From the NCBI RefSeq assembly GCF_004564135.1, contig NZ_CP038255.1, positions 466,501-530,500 of the forward strand: DNA of 64,000 bases, written 5' to 3'. This DNA comes from Terasakiella sp. SH-1 (GTDB taxonomy: Bacteria > Pseudomonadota > Alphaproteobacteria > Rhodospirillales > Terasakiellaceae). The translations under genes were made by a program, and so were the position numbers. Shown here piece after piece: positions 27,452 to 44,466 of the stretch (its first letter is position 1; the number at the start of each line of letters is the position of its first letter). Below the pieces are notes generated by a model. It did not search any database and was not told the DNA's origin. It worked only from the letters and a program-made list of their open reading frames with translations.

Positions 27452-28350
27452 GGGGCTAATGTCTCCTTAAGAAAGGTCGCAAGCATTTTAAATTCTTCTG
27501 CACGACCAGATGTTTTGCGCCAGACCAGCCCAATATCGCGTGGCGGGCTGTTTTGGGCCAAGGGAATGGTTTTAATATCGCAGCCTTTGTCAATGCCGGC
27601 TTCAATTGCCATTTGGGGCAATAAAGTGATCCCAAGACCATTGGCAACCATTTGAACGATGGTGGACAAGCTGGTGGCCCCAAATTCATTTGGACCTTTG
27701 TTGCTGGGCCAGGAGCAGGCCGCCATGGCATGTTCACGAATGCAATTGCCTTCTTCAAGCAAGAGAAGGTCCTCATCATAAAGGTCATGCGGCATGATGG
27801 CTTTGTGATCGCACATTGGGTGGGATAAAGGCAGGGCGCAGTAAAAGGAGTCCTGCATAAAGGTCAGGGTTTCCACGCCTTCTGCTTCATAAGGTAAGGC
27901 AAGAATCAGCAAGTCCAGATGCCCCCCATGCAGGCTGTCAAGCAGGCGAGCTGTTTGATCTTCTTTCAGATATAGGGTGAGATCGGGAAACTCATCGCGA
28001 ATGGCATGCATCAGTTTTGGCAGTAAAAAAGGGGCAATCGTGGGGATCACGCCTAAGCGCAGATCGCCGTTTAAGGGATTGCCCTTGGATTGGGCAAATT
28101 CCATCAAGGCATTTGCTTCCAATATAATGGCCTTGGCGCGTTCTAGGAGTTCTTCGCCAATCGGGGTGACAAGGACATGACGTTTGGTGCGTTCAAACAA
28201 TTGTACACCCAGTAAATCTTCAAATTCCTTGATGGCCGCGCTTAAGGTCGGTTGGGTTACAAAGCAGGCTTGGGCGGCGCGGCCAAAGTGCTTATGTTCG
28301 CCAACAGCAATGAAATATTTCAGATGTTTGAGGGAAAAAGATGCATTCAT
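27448..28350 (-). CDS. oxyR: OxyR-type peroxide-sensing LysR regulator
   Basis: 300 residues. LysR helix-turn-helix at the N-terminus (KYFIAVGEHKHFGRAAQACFVTQPTLSAAIKEFE). The effector domain keeps both redox cysteines in LEEGNCIREHAMAAC, C203 and C212, nine residues apart exactly as C199/C208 of E. coli OxyR. It should therefore sense hydrogen peroxide by disulfide formation. It overlaps lrgA by 4 bases, so the peroxide sensor is co-transcribed with lrgAB, which is not the usual oxyR setting (katG, ahpC). Confidence 0.85.
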   Translation of the reverse strand: MNASFSLKHLKYFIAVGEHKHFGRAAQACFVTQPTLSAAIKEFEDLLGVQLFERTKRHVLVTPIGEELLERAKAIILEANALMEFAQSKGNPLNGDLRLGVIPTIAPFLLPKLMHAIRDEFPDLTLYLKEDQTARLLDSLHGGHLDLLILALPYEAEGVETLTFMQDSFYCALPLSHPMCDHKAIMPHDLYDEDLLLLEEGNCIREHAMAACSWPSNKGPNEFGATSLSTIVQMVANGLGITLLPQMAIEAGIDKGCDIKTIPLAQNSPPRDIGLVWRKTSGRAEEFKMLATFLKETLAP

Positions 28351-37158: not shown

Positions 37159-38766
37159 ATGACACAACTCGATTCCCGTGATCAGTTTGAAGCATGGTTG
37201 AAGACGCAGGATGCTTGGGTTGCTATAGCACTAACTACACGGATCGGATTACGCGTTATTCCAAATCTATGTGCTTTTATTTTGCGAAATAAGAAAGAAT
37301 ATAGTTCAACGATTGCTTTGCCTGTTTTTCGTGCTATTGCAACAGCTTGGTGTGGAGGATTGCGATTAAAGAACGTCGCTGGATTAAGAGGGGCAGCGAT
37401 CCGAGCGATTTATGCAGGCAGGGCTAGCCGTTATGCTGTGGAAGCAGATGCTGGGTATTTTAGTGATTATGCTGCTGATATTGCGGCCGATGCGGCTTAT
37501 AAGGCAACCTGTGCAGTAACGGCTTATATCTCTGATAATGCTTTTGATGAAGTGGTGGATGTGGTTCTACGTTCTACTTTAAGCTCATGGCAGGAAATTA
37601 GTCATGATATTTCTCTTATCGAGAAAGGGGAAACATGTGAGCAGCTGATGTCTCGCCCCTTATGGGGGGAAGTGCCTCAAACGCGTGATGAAGATTGGCA
37701 AGAACTAAAAACAATCCTGCTGGCTTTAAATCAAAATTGGCAGGTTTGGACGCAGTGGTATGAAGACCGCCTTATTGGTGGTCCCAACCCCAATGGACGG
37801 CAATTCCTTTACCCATTGGAAAAGGAACGTGTGTTAATCCCGGATGGGGATTGGAAGAAGGGGCCTGCTCATGTCAATCGGTTGATTGCGGAAATTGAAA
37901 ATCGTTATCGCGGGGTACCTGAGCCTCGACAGATGATGCAGCGCCCGGCGGTTATTACGTTACAAAGGGGCGATGATGATGTGGTTCGCCTGCGCCCGGA
38001 TGATGCGCCGACAGCAGCCACGCAGCAGCAAGCGGACCATTGGCAACAAGCCTGGGAAGGGGTGTGTGAATCTTTTGAGGATTTCATGGAGCTGGAGCCA
38101 GGGCGCAATAACCGGGCCTTGGCGAAAACCTTGAAACGCTATGGGGAGGCTCTGGCCAGTCAGTATACTGACTTAAGCGTGATCAAGCTTGGTCAACATG
38201 GCAAACGCCTTGCCAGCTTGTTGCAATCTGCCTCTGATGAATTGATGGTCGATGTACAGGCCGAATTGGCCGCCTTGCTCGTGAACCACAATGAGTTTAT
38301 TCAACAAATCCCTGAATGGCTTGACTATTTAAAAGGTTTAAAAGCCACTGTTGCCAATGCCGATGTTGAATTTGCCTTTCATACGATTGAAAATATTGAA
38401 GAGTTGATCGGCATTGTCGATGACGAGGTGATTGAATCTTTCGAGCAATATCTTGAAGATATTATGGAAGATTATGTGCCTTCCTCGGAAGGGACGACAT
38501 CTGATCCTCTTGTTATTGATTTTGTGCGAAGTGTTGGCAACCTGCTCTCTATTATCGCCAAGCCGGTGGCCCGTTATATTCGTGAAGTTGGCAGGGTGGC
38601 TGTAAAGGGCAGCTTGACTGCTTTTGAAAAACTCTCTGAGAAATTTATTCTTACCATTGGTGCAGGAGCTGCGGCAGCGGGGCTTTCTCAATTATCCGGG
38701 ATTGTCAGTGATTATGCCTGGTTATTGCCCATTTTGACCTTTTTACAAGGCGGGAAAAAGAAATAA
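37159..38766 (+). CDS. large conserved protein of unknown function with C-terminal membrane segment
   Basis: 535 residues, no family recognised with certainty. Residues ~1-140 are Ala-rich and helical (ADIAADAAYKATCAVTAY). Residues ~193-250 hold a Trp-rich motif, WQVWTQWYEDRLIGG ... DGDWKKGPAHVNRLI, which I have seen in other alphaproteobacterial hypothetical proteins. The middle (~300-470) is charged helix. Residues ~495-531 are hydrophobic (LTIGAGAAAAGLSQLSGIVSDYAWLLPILTFL), suggesting membrane anchoring. It stands alone between the che operon terminator and ctrA. Confidence 0.6.
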   Translation: MTQLDSRDQFEAWLKTQDAWVAIALTTRIGLRVIPNLCAFILRNKKEYSSTIALPVFRAIATAWCGGLRLKNVAGLRGAAIRAIYAGRASRYAVEADAGYFSDYAADIAADAAYKATCAVTAYISDNAFDEVVDVVLRSTLSSWQEISHDISLIEKGETCEQLMSRPLWGEVPQTRDEDWQELKTILLALNQNWQVWTQWYEDRLIGGPNPNGRQFLYPLEKERVLIPDGDWKKGPAHVNRLIAEIENRYRGVPEPRQMMQRPAVITLQRGDDDVVRLRPDDAPTAATQQQADHWQQAWEGVCESFEDFMELEPGRNNRALAKTLKRYGEALASQYTDLSVIKLGQHGKRLASLLQSASDELMVDVQAELAALLVNHNEFIQQIPEWLDYLKGLKATVANADVEFAFHTIENIEELIGIVDDEVIESFEQYLEDIMEDYVPSSEGTTSDPLVIDFVRSVGNLLSIIAKPVARYIREVGRVAVKGSLTAFEKLSEKFILTIGAGAAAAGLSQLSGIVSDYAWLLPILTFLQGGKKK

Positions 38767-38805: not shown

Positions 38806-39510
38806 TTATGCCGAAGCCTGCGCCGGTTCTGCCGGGGCATCCGGGTCGCGCAGCACATAGCCGCGTCCCCAAACCGTGTGGATGTAATTGTCATCCGTGG
38901 CCTTGGTCAGTTTTTTGCGCAGTTTACAGACAAATACATCAATGATTTTCAGTTCCGGTTCGTCCATGCCGCCATAAAGGTGGTTGAGGAACATTTCCTT
39001 GGTCAGGGTGGAGCCTTTGCGCAAGGACAACAGTTCTAGAATGCCGTATTCCTTGGACGTCAAATGCACCGGCTTGCCATCGCTTTCCACCGTCTGGTTA
39101 TCCAGATTAACCGACAGTTTGCCTGTTTTGATCACAGACTGGGAATGACCTTTAGAGCGGCGCACAATTGCATGGATACGTGCAATCAGCTCGTCCTTGT
39201 TATAAGGTTTGGTCAGATAGTCATCTGCACCGATCTCAAAGCCCTTAACCTTGGAAGGGGGCTGATCAAGACCAGACAAAATCAGGATGGGTGTATCAAT
39301 CTTGGCACTACGCAAGGCACGCAAAACCTCAAAGCCATCAATATCCGGCAACATGAGATCAAGAATGATAATGTCGTAATCGTAGAGCTTACCAATCTCA
39401 ATGCCTTCTTCGCCGTAGTTGGTGACGTCTACCACCATACCTGCGGATTTTAGCATCAATTCAATTGCTTTTGCTTCGCTTGGGTTGTCTTCAACGAGTA
39501 ATGCACGCAT
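38806..39510 (-). CDS. ctrA: cell-cycle master response regulator CtrA
   Basis: 234 residues. Receiver with D51 ([13 protein letters not shown]) and Lys in [10 protein letters not shown]; OmpR-type winged helix with [13 protein letters not shown] and [20 protein letters not shown], nearly invariant among CtrA proteins. In many alphaproteobacteria CtrA controls motility and sometimes the cell cycle. It is fed by ChpT, also encoded here. The promoter region holds two overlapping consensus CtrA boxes and GANTC sites, pointing to autoregulation. Confidence 0.95.
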
Positions 39511-39535: not shown

Positions 39536-39561
39536 TTAACCTTTTCTTAACCTTTCGTTAA
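39536..39561. promoter_or_regulatory. two overlapping perfect CtrA boxes
   Basis: Three TTAA tetramers at 39536, 39547 and 39558 give two consecutive TTAA-N7-TTAA boxes sharing the middle half-site. They lie 26-51 bases upstream of the ctrA start codon and about 170 bases upstream of fliI. Confidence 0.8.
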
Positions 39562-39623
39562 CCTTTAGCACAATCATGATTTTATTAAAACATTTTTTTT
39601 CGCTCAACGCTATATTTTCTCGC

Positions 39624-39645
39624 GAGTCGCAAAAAATGTTGAATC
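39624..39645. promoter_or_regulatory. two GANTC (CcrM) methylation sites
   Basis: GAGTC at 39624-39628 and GAATC at 39641-39645 in the ctrA-fliI intergenic region. In Caulobacter the ctrA P1 promoter is tuned by methylation of a GANTC site; a similar control is plausible here. Confidence 0.5.
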
Positions 39646-39657
39646 TTGTCAAGGGGT

Positions 39658-39685
39658 TTGTCATTTTCCCGAATAAGAGTATAGT
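39658..39685 (+). promoter_or_regulatory. predicted sigma-70 promoter of fliI
   Basis: TTGTCA (39658-39663) and TATAGT (39680-39685) with a 16-base spacer, 46 bases before the fliI GTG. Confidence 0.55.
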
Positions 39686-39730
39686 ATAAATGCCCTATAC
39701 CCGTAGTTTCACTGAGATGGAGCATTGAAC

Positions 39731-41128
39731 GTGGCCCTTTTGGTCAATAACGTAATCGCAGAAGTTGATAAGCTTCCCGGCTACAACGTATATGGACGTG
39801 TAGCTGCCGTTAAAGGATTGATGGTTGAAGTCGGCGGGGTGCAAGGTGCCTTGTCCATTGGGGACCATTGCCGCATCCATGTGCGCAGGCGTGACTGGAT
39901 TACCTGTGAGGTGGTAAGCTTTCGCGATGGTCGTGCCCTTGTGATGCCCTTTGGTTCTGTTGACGGGATTGCCATGGGGGATCGGGTGGAGGTTGGTCAG
40001 CGTGAGCCTGTACTCTATCCTTGTGAAGAATGGTTGGGGCGCGTCATCAATGCCATGGGTGAACCTGTAGATGGGAAAGGTCCCTTGCCGGTGGGGCCAA
40101 ACCCCTATGTGATTAAAGGTTTGCCACCGTCCGCCCATGAACGTACACGGGTGGGTGGAAAAATGGATTTGGGGGTGCGTGCGATTAATACCTTCCTGAC
40201 TTGTTGCCGGGGGCAGCGGATGGGTATTTTTGCGGGCTCAGGTGTGGGTAAATCGACCATCCTGTCCATGATGGCACGTAATACCGAGGCTGAAATCAGT
40301 GTCATCGGGCTGATCGGGGAACGGGGACGTGAAGCGCGTGAATTTATCGAAGATGATTTGGGTGAAGAAGGATTGGCGCGTTCTATCGTTGTGGTTGCCA
40401 CATCCGATGAACCGCCCTTGATGCGTCGTCAGGCTTCTTATGTCACTATGGCGGTGGCGGAATATTTCCGTGATCAGCAAAAAGATGTGCTGTGTTTGAT
40501 GGATAGTGTGACCCGTTTTGCCATGGCCCAACGTGAAATCAGCCTGTCTGTGGGGGAACCACCGGCTTCAAAAGGGTATACGCCGTCTGTTTTTGCGGAA
40601 TTGCCGCGTTTGCTGGAACGTGCTGGACCGGGGAATGCGCAACAGGGCAATATCACCGGGCTGTTCACTGTTCTGGTGGAAGGCGATGATCATAACGAAC
40701 CGATTTCAGATGCGGTACGTGGTATTTTGGATGGTCATATTGTTTTGGATCGTGCGATTGCTGAACGGGGACGTTATCCGGCGATTAACCTGCTGCGCAG
40801 TGTGTCGCGGACCATGCCTGATTGTAATGATGATCAGCAGAACGCCTTGGTCTTTAAGGCGCGCCAGTTGTTATCAACCTATGAAGATATGGCAGAACTG
40901 ATCCGTTTGGGGGCCTATCGTCAAGGGACAGACCCCAAGGTGGATGAGGCGGTTTATTATAATCCGGCCTTGGAAGCCTTCTTATCACAAAACAAGAATG
41001 AACCGATGGATTTGGAAACCGGCTATATGGCGTTGGCGCAGTTGTTAGGTATGCAATATCGTGATTTTAATGGTGATGTCAGCCAGTTGGGTGTAGCGCA
41101 AGATCAGCTTCAGGCTCCACCACAGTAA
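39731..41128 (+). CDS. fliI: flagellar export ATPase FliI
   Basis: 465 residues, F1-beta-like ATPase that powers or assists flagellar type III export with FliH and FliJ. Walker A is FAGSGVGKST, and the Walker B region is DVLCLMDSVTRFAMAQRE. The GTG at 39731 lies 9 bases from ATGGAG; a TTG at 39725 is too close to that site. It starts a short operon with fliJ, divergent from ctrA. Confidence 0.95.
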   Translation: MALLVNNVIAEVDKLPGYNVYGRVAAVKGLMVEVGGVQGALSIGDHCRIHVRRRDWITCEVVSFRDGRALVMPFGSVDGIAMGDRVEVGQREPVLYPCEEWLGRVINAMGEPVDGKGPLPVGPNPYVIKGLPPSAHERTRVGGKMDLGVRAINTFLTCCRGQRMGIFAGSGVGKSTILSMMARNTEAEISVIGLIGERGREAREFIEDDLGEEGLARSIVVVATSDEPPLMRRQASYVTMAVAEYFRDQQKDVLCLMDSVTRFAMAQREISLSVGEPPASKGYTPSVFAELPRLLERAGPGNAQQGNITGLFTVLVEGDDHNEPISDAVRGILDGHIVLDRAIAERGRYPAINLLRSVSRTMPDCNDDQQNALVFKARQLLSTYEDMAELIRLGAYRQGTDPKVDEAVYYNPALEAFLSQNKNEPMDLETGYMALAQLLGMQYRDFNGDVSQLGVAQDQLQAPPQ

Positions 41129-41140
41129 GGCATGTGATCT

Positions 41141-41569
41141 ATGGGAAAGACACTTGCCAACCTGATCCGCTTACATAAATATAATGTGGACGAAAAACGC
41201 CGGGTTCTTGGCCTACTTTATGGTGAGCTCCATGCCATGGAACAAAGGCTTCAGGATTTAGAAGACCAGATTGTACGGGAAAAGGAAATTGCCGCCAGTT
41301 CCCCTGAACAGGCGATGTTTTCTTATGGCCGTTTTCATGAGCGTGCCATGTCTATTCGTGAAGAAATCAACGCCGCTATGGCTGCTAAGGAAGAAGAGAT
41401 TGACGCGGCTCGTGAAGAGGTCAATGAGGCGTTTCGCGAGCTGAAAATCTATGAAGAAGCTGAAAAAAACCGTATTCAGCGGGAAAAAGATGAACAGACT
41501 CGCAAGGAAAATATCGAGATGGATGAAATCGCGATGAACCTGTATCGTGCCCATCACGATGACACGTGA
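41141..41569 (+). CDS. fliJ: flagellar export chaperone FliJ
   Basis: 142 residues, almost entirely predicted coiled coil rich in Glu, Arg and Lys (LGLLYGELHAMEQRLQDLEDQIVREKEIA). FliJ sits in the central pore of the FliI hexamer. Assigned from position right after fliI and its shape, as the sequence itself is poorly conserved. Confidence 0.85.
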   Translation: MGKTLANLIRLHKYNVDEKRRVLGLLYGELHAMEQRLQDLEDQIVREKEIAASSPEQAMFSYGRFHERAMSIREEINAAMAAKEEEIDAAREEVNEAFRELKIYEEAEKNRIQREKDEQTRKENIEMDEIAMNLYRAHHDDT

Positions 41570-42021: not shown

Positions 42022-43659
42022 CTACACCAGCATGCCAAGGTTGATTTCCCCTTTTTGCACCTCAATCCCGTCGACATCAACGAAATTCGGTGTGACTTGA
42101 TACGAGATGTTGCCGTCAAAACCGATCACCTGCATGCCTTTTTCATAAATTTCAAAGATATCTTTGCGCATGAAACCGGGCAGGGCAGTGTGTGTGCGAA
42201 TGATCAGGTCGAATTTCTTACTTTTATCCTTAGCGAGGCCGTCGAGCTGCATCGGGCCTGTTTTTGATAAGTCCAGATCAATCACGAAGCGCACGCCGGG
42301 TTCATCTTTATCGCCATCTTTTTCTTCCTGATGATCACGCTGGGCAATTCGAATTTGATTGATTTCCCCATTATTTTGTAGGGGCACATAGGCGATTTTC
42401 CAATCGGTTGAATTGGGTGTTTTTGCCTTATCAGCCAGTTGGGTAAAATCTTTCTCCAGTTTGCTGAGCAATTCCGGTTTTGATTTGGCCAGTGCTTTGA
42501 TAGTGCGATCATCGGCCCAGTTTTTGAAACTGCCGCGTCCCAATGCCTTTAAAAAGAAAATCATGTTTAAGGCAAGTCGGGTATCGGGCTTGGGCATGAG
42601 CGCATTGCTCAGATTATCTGCCAAGGCGGGGTTTATGTCTTTTAAGGCACTAAAGGCTTCTTCTAATGCAGGCCATTTCTGGCTAAGGGGGGCGTTGCCC
42701 TGATTGAGGGGATTGGGGTGGAAAGAAGTCGCCTTCGCCATAGGTTTAGAGGAAGACAGGACTTCCAGTTTTACCATGGTGCCATCGGGCATTTTGGCTT
42801 GCGTATCCAAAGAAATATTACCTTGGGGCAATTTGATAACAGGTTGACCCTGTGGGCTTTTTCCTTGAACGCTGCCTTGAGTGATGACCGAATTGGGACT
42901 GACTGGTTTTGTATCTGTTTGGAGAGGCGTTGCAGCCTGACCGGGCTGTTGAACACTGATCAGGCGGATGTTGAGCTGACGACCTGTTTGGAAATGAGCC
43001 GCTGTGTTGAGCTGGGTCGTTGTGTTTGGTGTTGCCGTTTGAGCGGTTGCTGAGGGCTGTTTGCTCTGGCCGGGCAAAATATTCTTTAAGGCTTTTTGCA
43101 ATGGATTCTGCATGACAGCTTGGGCAGTGCCAGGCGTTGCATTATGGGGCGTGGCCTGTGGATTGGTACTCAAGACAAAGGCTTTCATGCCCGATGCTGT
43201 ATTTAAGTTCAGCAGGGTTGCCGGGGCTTTGGCTGTCGTGGCATTTTGGGCTGCTTGCCCGCTATTTTGCCCCAGTGCTGTTGGTGTAGAGGTTCCTTGC
43301 ATCAATTGATTGGCAAGAGAGTTTATCCGTGAAGCGGCGGTGTTGAGCGCAATAGGCTTGCCATGAATATGGCTCAGTTGGAGCTGTACAGCTGGTTGTG
43401 TCTGCACGACCTTGAAGGTTGCAGGCGTTTCAGGTGGCAGGTTGAAGGGGGCTTTAAATTGCAACGGGCCGAAACTGGTTTGCAAGGTTGTGAGACCTTG
43501 GGCATTAGGCGCTTTGATCAGGCCGGACAGAAAGCTGTCAATCGGGAGCTTGCCCAGCTGGGCTGTGGCTGTTGCAGTCAGGGTTACGGTTAATTGCGCA
43601 GCACTGCCGCCGCCACTTGGCGGTAGGGGAGGCGGGGGCGGGGGCGCAACGCTCGTCAT
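42022..43659 (-). CDS. FliK-like hook-length control paralog
   Basis: 545 residues. Starts with a Pro run (APPPPPPLPPSGGG), then a long Gln/Thr/Ala-rich region (~100-320) of low complexity. The folded C-terminal part (~400-545) has FVIDLDLSKTGPMQLDGL and FDLIIRTHTALPGFMRKDIFEIYEKGMQVIGF, similar in layout to the FliK/Flg_hook C-terminal domain. A clearer fliK lies at 56.7-58.5 kb, so this may be a second molecular ruler or a related secreted protein. Lies 15 bases after flhG. Confidence 0.55.
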   Translation of the reverse strand: MTSVAPPPPPPLPPSGGGSAAQLTVTLTATATAQLGKLPIDSFLSGLIKAPNAQGLTTLQTSFGPLQFKAPFNLPPETPATFKVVQTQPAVQLQLSHIHGKPIALNTAASRINSLANQLMQGTSTPTALGQNSGQAAQNATTAKAPATLLNLNTASGMKAFVLSTNPQATPHNATPGTAQAVMQNPLQKALKNILPGQSKQPSATAQTATPNTTTQLNTAAHFQTGRQLNIRLISVQQPGQAATPLQTDTKPVSPNSVITQGSVQGKSPQGQPVIKLPQGNISLDTQAKMPDGTMVKLEVLSSSKPMAKATSFHPNPLNQGNAPLSQKWPALEEAFSALKDINPALADNLSNALMPKPDTRLALNMIFFLKALGRGSFKNWADDRTIKALAKSKPELLSKLEKDFTQLADKAKTPNSTDWKIAYVPLQNNGEINQIRIAQRDHQEEKDGDKDEPGVRFVIDLDLSKTGPMQLDGLAKDKSKKFDLIIRTHTALPGFMRKDIFEIYEKGMQVIGFDGNISYQVTPNFVDVDGIEVQKGEINLGMLV

Positions 43660-43674
43660 GAAGAGCCTATCGTT

Positions 43675-44466
43675 TTAAAAACTGTTAATCAAACTGTTCG
43701 CAATAGCGGCAACATCCTTGGCTGCAACGCAGTTGGGCGCATGGCTAAGCAAGGGTTGTTGGTGTTTGATTGTATCACGAACCCGCTTGTCCCAACGAAT
43801 CACACCCGCCAAGGGGGGAGAAATACCCAGAAAACCTTCACAGGCGCGACGCAGTGTATTGTAGGTCCGTTCCCCATCACGGATCGAATCGCTCATATTC
43901 ACGACAACGCGCAGATCCAGACCGGGGCGATCCTTACTGATGGTTTTAATAAAGGCATAGGCATCGGTCATGGCTGTGGGTTCATCAGCGGTGACAACAA
44001 GACAAGTTCCGGCCTTGGAGGTTAATTGCCGTGTTGGTCGTTCAATCCCGGCTCCCAGATCAACAATCACCCGGTCATAAGAGGCAGATAAGACACTCAG
44101 GTCATTGCCCAGATGTTGAATTTGGTTGGCTGGAATATGATTAAGCGTGCTGGAACCAGATCGTCCGGGAATAATATCAAAGCCCCCTTCGTCAAAAGGC
44201 TGGGCGGCTTGATTGAGAGTCAGGTTGCCCCCGACAACACCGGAAAGATCATGTTTGGGCATCAGGCCAAGCTGGATATCCACATTGGCAAGACCAAAGT
44301 CCCCATCAAACAATAAGGTCCGTTGACCCAAATCTGCTAACGCATGAGATAACGTTACTGCAAACCAGGTCTTTCCCACACCGCCTTTTCCTGACGCAAC
44401 AGCAAAAACATTGCTGCCTTTACGTGCAGCCGGTGCTGGAGTGGTTTTTTTCATAGCTGCAAACAT
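43675..44466 (-). CDS. flhG: flagellar-number ATPase FlhG (MinD/ParA-like)
   Basis: 263 residues. Deviant Walker A KGGVGKT (27-33), LLFDGDFGLANVDIQLGL, and VIVDLGAGIERPTR, all typical of FlhG/YlxH. FlhG limits flagellar number or placement, usually with the GTPase FlhF. No flhF lies next to it here; a lipoprotein gene and then flhA are upstream instead. Confidence 0.9.
   Translation of the reverse strand: MFAAMKKTTPAPAARKGSNVFAVASGKGGVGKTWFAVTLSHALADLGQRTLLFDGDFGLANVDIQLGLMPKHDLSGVVGGNLTLNQAAQPFDEGGFDIIPGRSGSSTLNHIPANQIQHLGNDLSVLSASYDRVIVDLGAGIERPTRQLTSKAGTCLVVTADEPTAMTDAYAFIKTISKDRPGLDLRVVVNMSDSIRDGERTYNTLRRACEGFLGISPPLAGVIRWDKRVRDTIKHQQPLLSHAPNCVAAKDVAAIANSLINSF

Follow-up and report, generated by a model that had tools for sequence, protein, structure and literature searches.

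Three TTAA half-sites in strict 11-bp phase upstream of ctrA in Terasakiella form a probable CtrA operator for negative feedback

In Terasakiella sp. SH-1, the stretch between ctrA and the divergent flagellar gene fliI carries an array of three TTAA half-sites that we regard as probably a CtrA operator, through which ctrA would be held under negative feedback. CtrA is, by its domains, a response regulator of the OmpR/PhoB type. The array is conserved with fixed geometry throughout the genomes of the genus that we compared, it goes with ctrA and not with fliI, and no nATAnT hexamer follows it downstream; from these features we infer binding by CtrA and a repressive effect. All positions below refer to the window, the 64,000-nucleotide stretch of DNA that was analyzed.

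The gene on the minus strand at 38806-39510 encodes a 234-aa product that matches the NCBIfam equivalog for response regulator CtrA (NF045991) at 399.7 bits (cut-off 350), as well as Pfam Response_reg and Trans_reg_C (PF00486, 76.8 bits). With this equivalog-level match, an intact DNA-binding domain and an alignment of 10 sequences, we identify the product as CtrA; its best PDB match, 4qpj chain C ("Cell cycle response regulator CtrA"), covers the receiver domain only. On the plus strand, fliI (39725-41128, with a TTG start at 39725 or a GTG start at 39731) encodes the flagellar export ATPase and matches TIGR03498 (FliI_clade3) at 660.5 bits (cut-off 587.45). It is followed by fliJ (41141-41569, plus strand), which matches Pfam PF02050 above its cut-off (31.3 bits against 28.4) and TIGR02473 below its cut-off (31.6 bits against 50.45). 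The naming and divergent arrangement of ctrA and fliI in an earlier note on this DNA are therefore correct, with both family matches above cut-off. Between a cheR-like gene and ctrA lies an ORF of 535 aa (37159-38766), for which no Pfam or NCBIfam match was found at E 0.001.

The array TTAACCTTTTCTTAACCTTTCGTTAA spans 39536-39561 and, as a feature without strand, has TTAA at 39536, 39547 and 39558, an 11-bp period in which the middle TTAA is common to two perfect, overlapping TTAA-N7-TTAA boxes of the canonical CtrA type. A direct check of the sequence thus bore out the earlier description of three TTAA, 11 bases apart, forming two N7 boxes with a shared half-site. The array is separated by 25 bp from the ctrA ATG (39510, minus strand) and by 163 bp (TTG 39725) or 169 bp (GTG 39731) from the possible starts of fliI. 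Besides the alignment of the genus genomes described below, the array was assessed by pattern search and local shuffles. The window holds 3 single N7 boxes, where shuffles average 1.02 and 6 of 100 reach at least that number; it holds one triple, where the shuffle average is 0.01 (seen in 1 of 100). Of 20,000 dinucleotide-preserving shuffles of the 214-bp intergenic stretch itself, 3 produced the triple, 573 a single N7 box and 26 a TTAA triple of any even spacing (period 8-13). The triple is present only once in the 3.83-Mb genome, at ctrA, but this count is unremarkable by itself because the backward-read control pattern also occurs once; the weight for the array rests on its position and conservation, not on the genome-wide count. 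We also considered genome-wide enrichment of CtrA boxes as a regulon signal and set it aside, as none was clear: the genome has 73 TTAA-N7-TTAA and 51 TTAA-N6-TTAA sites, compared to 127 and 117, respectively, when the patterns are read backward.

For comparison, ctrA was searched in 60 genomes, comprising our own, 5 of the same genus and 54 of the same order. Five order genomes without a match better than E = 1e-38 were left out as having no evident CtrA orthologue, and the remaining 55 gave 56 ctrA loci, one genome carrying two copies. The triple is present in all six genus genomes examined (our own included), with one copy 5' of ctrA in each. The earlier note had tied its claim to retention of the 11-base phasing in close relatives, and the phasing is kept in 6/6. 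Invariant alignment columns make up 12/12 of the TTAA positions, 9/14 of the spacer positions and 26/56 of the adjoining middle stretch upstream. The ctrA-proximal TTAA begins 25-29 bp before the ATG in these genomes, and the gap between array and ATG (21-25 bp) varies in both length and sequence. Since the closest pair shares 85% intergenic identity and all other pairs 64-77%, the six genomes are diverged yet are not independent observations. Two of the six carry a second triple elsewhere, which we take as chance; in one of them (genome G003, locus L173), this copy lies away from ctrA, is made of the short tandem repeat TTAACTTAAAC and is probably a chance occurrence.

To look beyond the genus, we combined the 56 loci with the best 80 from a named collection, giving 136, and dropped loci that offered under 100 bp of upstream sequence or were at least 80% identical over the last 100 bp. 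Of the 120 that remained, 44 belong to the order but not to the genus, 71 are named loci (from the best 80, judging by their titles a mixture that includes Rhodobacterales and Sphingomonads) and 5 come from the genus itself. The 80 bp immediately before ctrA contain 1.95 TTAA per locus in the 44 order loci, compared to 0.43 at -240 to -160 and to 0.23 for AATT; at least one TTAA is present in 41 loci, two in 27 and three in 16. The spacing of these pairs is chiefly N6 (24 pairs), followed by N9 (7), N7 (3) and others (9), such that 22/44 loci hold an N6 pair and 3 an N7 pair. The 11-bp phase is therefore not kept beyond the genus, and N6 pairs predominate in the order. Consecutive TTAA in an N7-N7 run were not found within 100 bp upstream of ctrA at any of the 115 non-genus loci (the named ones from the best 80). 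Other phased runs do occur: N6-N6 in L028 and L029, N6-N7 in L016 and L057, N6-N9 in L021, L031, L036 and L046, and N6-N6-N6 in L135.

Many order loci also share a particular placement of the first TTAA. A TTGAnn-N17-TAnnnTTAA promoter, in which the first TTAA lies over the predicted -10, is present in 14/44 order loci; with the spacer varied between 8 and 26, the same elements occur elsewhere only once at N18 and twice at N25. Excerpts of PMC4287350 and PMC11264516 describe Caulobacter CtrA half-sites over the -10 as repressing, ctrA P1 included, and by analogy the TTAA over the -10 in the order would occupy a repressor position. The 71 named loci (from the best 80) are likewise rich in TTAA near ctrA, with 2.03 per last 80 bp and 66/71 having at least one; their spacing is mixed (N6 8, N7 6, N8 7, and others). 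Since the N17 promoter is seen in only 1/71 of these named loci (from the best 80), the rule of a TTAA overlapping the -10 is limited to the order.

The earlier note had also proposed that the same element might control fliI, which the comparison does not support. Among the 115 non-genus loci (named ones from the best 80), a divergent fliI lies within 700 bp of ctrA in 64 and not in 50 for which at least 900 bp was seen, and one could not be judged. Near ctrA, TTAA are equally dense in both situations, at 1.97 with fliI adjacent (n = 35) and 1.89 without (n = 9) in the order, and at 2.03 (n = 29) and 2.00 (n = 41) in the named loci (from the best 80). At least one TTAA within the last 80 bp is found in 8/9 order loci without an adjacent fliI compared to 33/35 with it, and a TTAA is present near ctrA in 39/41 named loci (from the best 80) that lack the adjacent fliI. 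Because the density is equal with and without fliI, the half-sites go with ctrA. Moreover, among the 33 order loci whose intergenic stretch measures 40-395 bp, 19 carry a separate TTTA-N7-TTAA box for fliI on the fliI strand (often TTTACCAAACCTTAA), for example L010, L015, L028 and L036; the opposite strand has 3, and other spacers from N4 to N10 give 0 to 2. This box is followed by nATAnT at N11 or N12 in 12/33; at spacers of 5-24, the only other occurrences are at N19, in 2 of the same loci. The arrangement has the predicted layout of a CtrA-activated promoter.

No TTTA-N7-TTAA box was found near fliI in the focal genus (0/6 genomes). The TTAA nearest to fliI begins 172-174 bp before its start in the genus genomes; the array and the -35 of the predicted fliI promoter are 96 bp apart in the focal genome. 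That promoter, TTGTCA-N16-TATAGT (39658-39685, plus strand), was among 4 promoter-like sites that a promoter scan of 1201 bp returned, where shuffled sequence gave 1.8 on average; it has no CtrA box at its -35, and TTGTCA-N16-TATA[GT]T is present toward fliI in 6/6 genus genomes. Within the window, a relaxed box-N10-13-nAnnnT pattern occurs at two places, inside an ORF (27456-27489) and at the array facing fliI (39547-39580). We rejected the latter as a CtrA-activated promoter toward fliI, as its -10-like CATGAT at N13 is restricted to the focal genome and is not kept in the other five. Altogether, a shared element tied to both genes is not supported, since the TTAA persist without fliI, fliI has its own box in 19/33 relatives and, in 6/6 genus genomes, fliI has a conserved promoter-like element some 97 bp from the array. 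At most, fliI has left CtrA control in the focal genus or is reached from a distance. CtrA self-control, on the other hand, is well supported by sequence comparison, with the array kept at ctrA in 6/6 genus genomes and TTAA clusters across the order.

Upstream of the array lies an invariant 17-bp block (TGTCAAGGGGTTTGTCA on the plus strand, 39647-39663, without assigned strand), identical in 6/6 genus genomes. Its sequence reads as a pair of -35 elements placed back to back: TTGTCA toward fliI (39658-39663), the half also picked up by the promoter scan, and TTGACA toward ctrA (39652-39647), after which no convincing -10 was found. Read on the ctrA strand as TGACAAACCCCTTGACA, the block begins exactly 102 bp before the first TTAA of the array in all six genomes, and TTGACA lies 91 bp from that TTAA. 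No length change occurs within this 102-bp stretch, whereas the distance from block to fliI varies between 66 and 68 bp. Up to 400 bp upstream of ctrA in the 115 non-genus loci (named ones from the best 80), no match to the block with 3 or fewer mismatches was found. In its own genome, the copy at ctrA-fliI alone has fewer than 3 mismatches. When up to 3 are allowed, TGACAAACCCCTTGACA has 17 forward and 7 reverse matches compared to 12 and 8 for the backward control, and we rejected it as a widespread or regulon-wide motif.

GANTC (CcrM-type) sites accompany this block. One, at 39624-39628, is kept in 6/6 genus genomes, and another, at 39641-39645 directly after the ctrA-side TTGACA, in 5/6 (neither with a strand). 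The last 140 bp before ctrA in the 44 order loci contain 0.95 GANTC per locus and the next 140 bp 0.66, compared to 0.41 for GTNAC, 0.14 for CTNAG and 0.41 for ACNGT over the former interval. GANTC in the 71 named loci (from the best 80), at 0.51 per locus, does not exceed GTNAC (0.55). These frequencies are suggestive of GANTC enrichment near ctrA in the order only. An inverted repeat GCGACTC/GAGTCGC with GANTC in both arms lies upstream of ctrA in L025 and L030, and the stretch TTGCGACTCGTGGCAAG is found upstream of ctrA in L025 and in the Thalassospira loci L094 and L095. The focal genus retains one TTGCGACTCG arm.

The sign of control was judged from the hexamers downstream of the array. 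Among those 10-14 bp past each TTAA toward ctrA, nATAnT is absent in 6/6 genus genomes; a looser nAnnnT does follow some TTAA (at N14, for example, L004, L005 and L007 have CAATTT or CATTTT). The layout of a CtrA-activated promoter, with a box near -35 and nATAnT 11-12 bp past the second TTAA (a reference spacing measured at fliI of the order relatives), is therefore not seen at ctrA. In the genus alignment, a possible ctrA -10 beside the array (39567-39572, minus strand) reads TGTGCT here, TATGGT in three genomes, TATGAT in one and TGTGTT in another, with no consistent -35. Since nATAnT is absent toward ctrA, negative autoregulation over the ctrA start or leader is the best reading. The DNA-binding domains of CtrA would lie head to tail on TTAA half-sites 11 bp, or about one helical turn, apart, and three half-sites would accommodate a dimer together with one further subunit, or a dimer that could sit in two alternative registers. 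CtrA on the array would cover the transcription start or leader of ctrA and damp its expression once active CtrA accumulates; we place the occlusion there because only 25 bp lie between array and ATG and no nATAnT follows. Initial transcription of ctrA would come from the conserved upstream TTGACA/GANTC stretch, which may be analogous to the GcrA- and methylation-controlled P1 that precedes CtrA feedback in Caulobacter, as excerpts of PMC3751295 describe it.

Several observations speak against autorepression, and its main rival is positive autoregulation like that of Caulobacter ctrA P2, in which CtrA on one N7 box would bring RNA polymerase to a start that coincides with the ctrA ATG or lies just 5' of it, giving a short leader or a leaderless transcript. 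No good -10 follows the TTGACA block, and the focal genome has a degenerate form of the TATGGT-like hexamer, which lacks a -35. N7 is the spacing of the activating Caulobacter boxes in the part of PMC4287350 drawn on here, compared to mostly N6 at ctrA in the order, and the same source places full N7 boxes typically near the -35 of activated promoters. Autorepression is further weakened by the -10-overlap promoter being present in 14/44 order loci but in 1/71 named loci (from the best 80), and TTAA-N7-TTAA shows no plain enrichment over the genome. The opposite sign is possible by analogy, since the multi-half-site cluster of Caulobacter P2, with three TTAA, is CtrA-activated (PMC3751295, in excerpt), and the loose nAnnnT hexamers would suit such a promoter. 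We consider P2-like activation unlikely, though a serious contender: the absence of nATAnT in 6/6 genus genomes, compared to its presence at N11-12 at fliI of the relatives (12/33), speaks against it, and the stretch between array and ATG varies in length and sequence.

We judge it quite improbable that the array also, or mainly, controls fliI as a shared element. Such control would fit the adjacent, divergent position of fliI, the exactly constant distance between the array and the block holding the fliI -35, the absence in the genus of the dedicated box of its relatives and the report, in a portion of PMC6180460, of one CtrA site common to the divergent flgB and fliO promoters in Caulobacter. 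It is countered by the distance to fliI, the persistence of TTAA clusters at ctrA loci that lack fliI and the restriction of CATGAT to one genome. That the array is no CtrA site at all, but an AT-rich leader or the site of another regulator, seems very improbable to us. TTAA is short and common in AT-rich DNA, and the genome-wide triple count equals its backward control; however, the triple arose in just 3 of the 20,000 local shuffles, the array is kept in 6/6 genus genomes amid less conserved surroundings, and TTAA clusters recur at ctrA across the order.

The earlier note had taken the shared half-site to imply cooperative binding, which is overstated, since sharing fits mutually exclusive registers equally well. 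By analogy to PhoP, whose direct 7-bp repeats with a 4-bp spacer (an 11-bp period) are bound by a cooperative dimer in the excerpted account of PMC4832192, the three-unit array could hold a third CtrA subunit; it could equally offer two exclusive registers. As the shared half-site fits these as well as a three-subunit chain, we dropped any ranking of cooperativity by sequence. A more far-reaching and, in our view, improbable scenario is that, in this genus, ctrA-fliI was rewired as one fixed nucleoprotein unit. A housekeeping-type promoter, standing back to back with a ctrA promoter flanked by GANTC, would have replaced the N7 CtrA box that fliI had for itself, and the ctrA-proximal site would have gone from the order's customary N6 spacing to the three-unit N7 array, kept exactly 102 bp from the promoter block. 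A chain of three CtrA would then contact or bend the DNA to both polymerase sites and set both genes.

Self-control of ctrA is already known, best from Caulobacter, and the array is a local variant of this feedback loop with a new local geometry, not a new kind of system. As in the P1/P2(/P3) region of Caulobacter crescentus, with multiple TTAA near ctrA and three of them in one cluster (P2, a TTAA-N6-TTAA with one more TTAA 1 bp on; PMC3751295, in excerpt), the focal locus has a cluster of three, and GANTC in the upstream promoter is a further likeness (PMC4287350, in part). Unlike that system, the locus described here has a strict 11-bp phase, no nATAnT after the cluster and a divergent fliI. 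The Caulobacter reference spacing is itself reported two ways, since the excerpts give N7 in PMC4287350 and N6 in PMC3751295. The half-site repressor class of Caulobacter, as partly quoted from PMC4287350, is matched by the 14/44 order relatives with TTAA over a predicted -10 and a -35 at N17, whereas the focal-genus array lies a few base pairs further downstream and has no clear -10/-35 pair. In the sections of PMC6180460 used here, N6 CtrA sites are functional in Rhodobacter sphaeroides and described for Magnetospirillum magneticum; the divergent flgB2-fliI2 promoters of R. sphaeroides resemble our region in including fliI and have separate CtrA sites, but the partner is flgB2 and not ctrA, and both promoters are CtrA-activated. 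The 11-bp half-site period recalls the tandem repeats of the OmpR/PhoB family member PhoP (PMC4832192, as excerpted), unlike which the array has three units instead of two and a palindromic TTAA, so that the core does not fix subunit orientation. CtrA sites have been predicted in promoters of cell-cycle genes across alphaproteobacteria (PMC2877005, in the part consulted). A literature search on CtrA sites, covering titles and abstract openings and few subscription journals, returned no phased TTAA triple at ctrA.

The order comparison suggests that ctrA-proximal sites often stand at a repressor-like position and that fliI often has a separate activator-type box. On this view, feedback on ctrA and control of the flagellum would act through physically distinct elements, either of which may be gained or lost without the other. 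The genus-specific array, with three units in fixed phase, offers a clean test object for whether a third OmpR/PhoB-type subunit joins on a tandem site. A match to the GcrA family (PF07750) above cut-off is present in the genome; the control search was positive in Caulobacter and, unexpectedly, also in Sulfolobus acidocaldarius. No family match to SciP (DUF1153) was found in the genome, and control of ctrA here may operate without the SciP arm of Caulobacter. Elsewhere in the window, a TTAA-N6-TTAA pair at 43675-43688 lies shortly 5' of the ATG (43659) of a minus-strand ORF (42022-43659).
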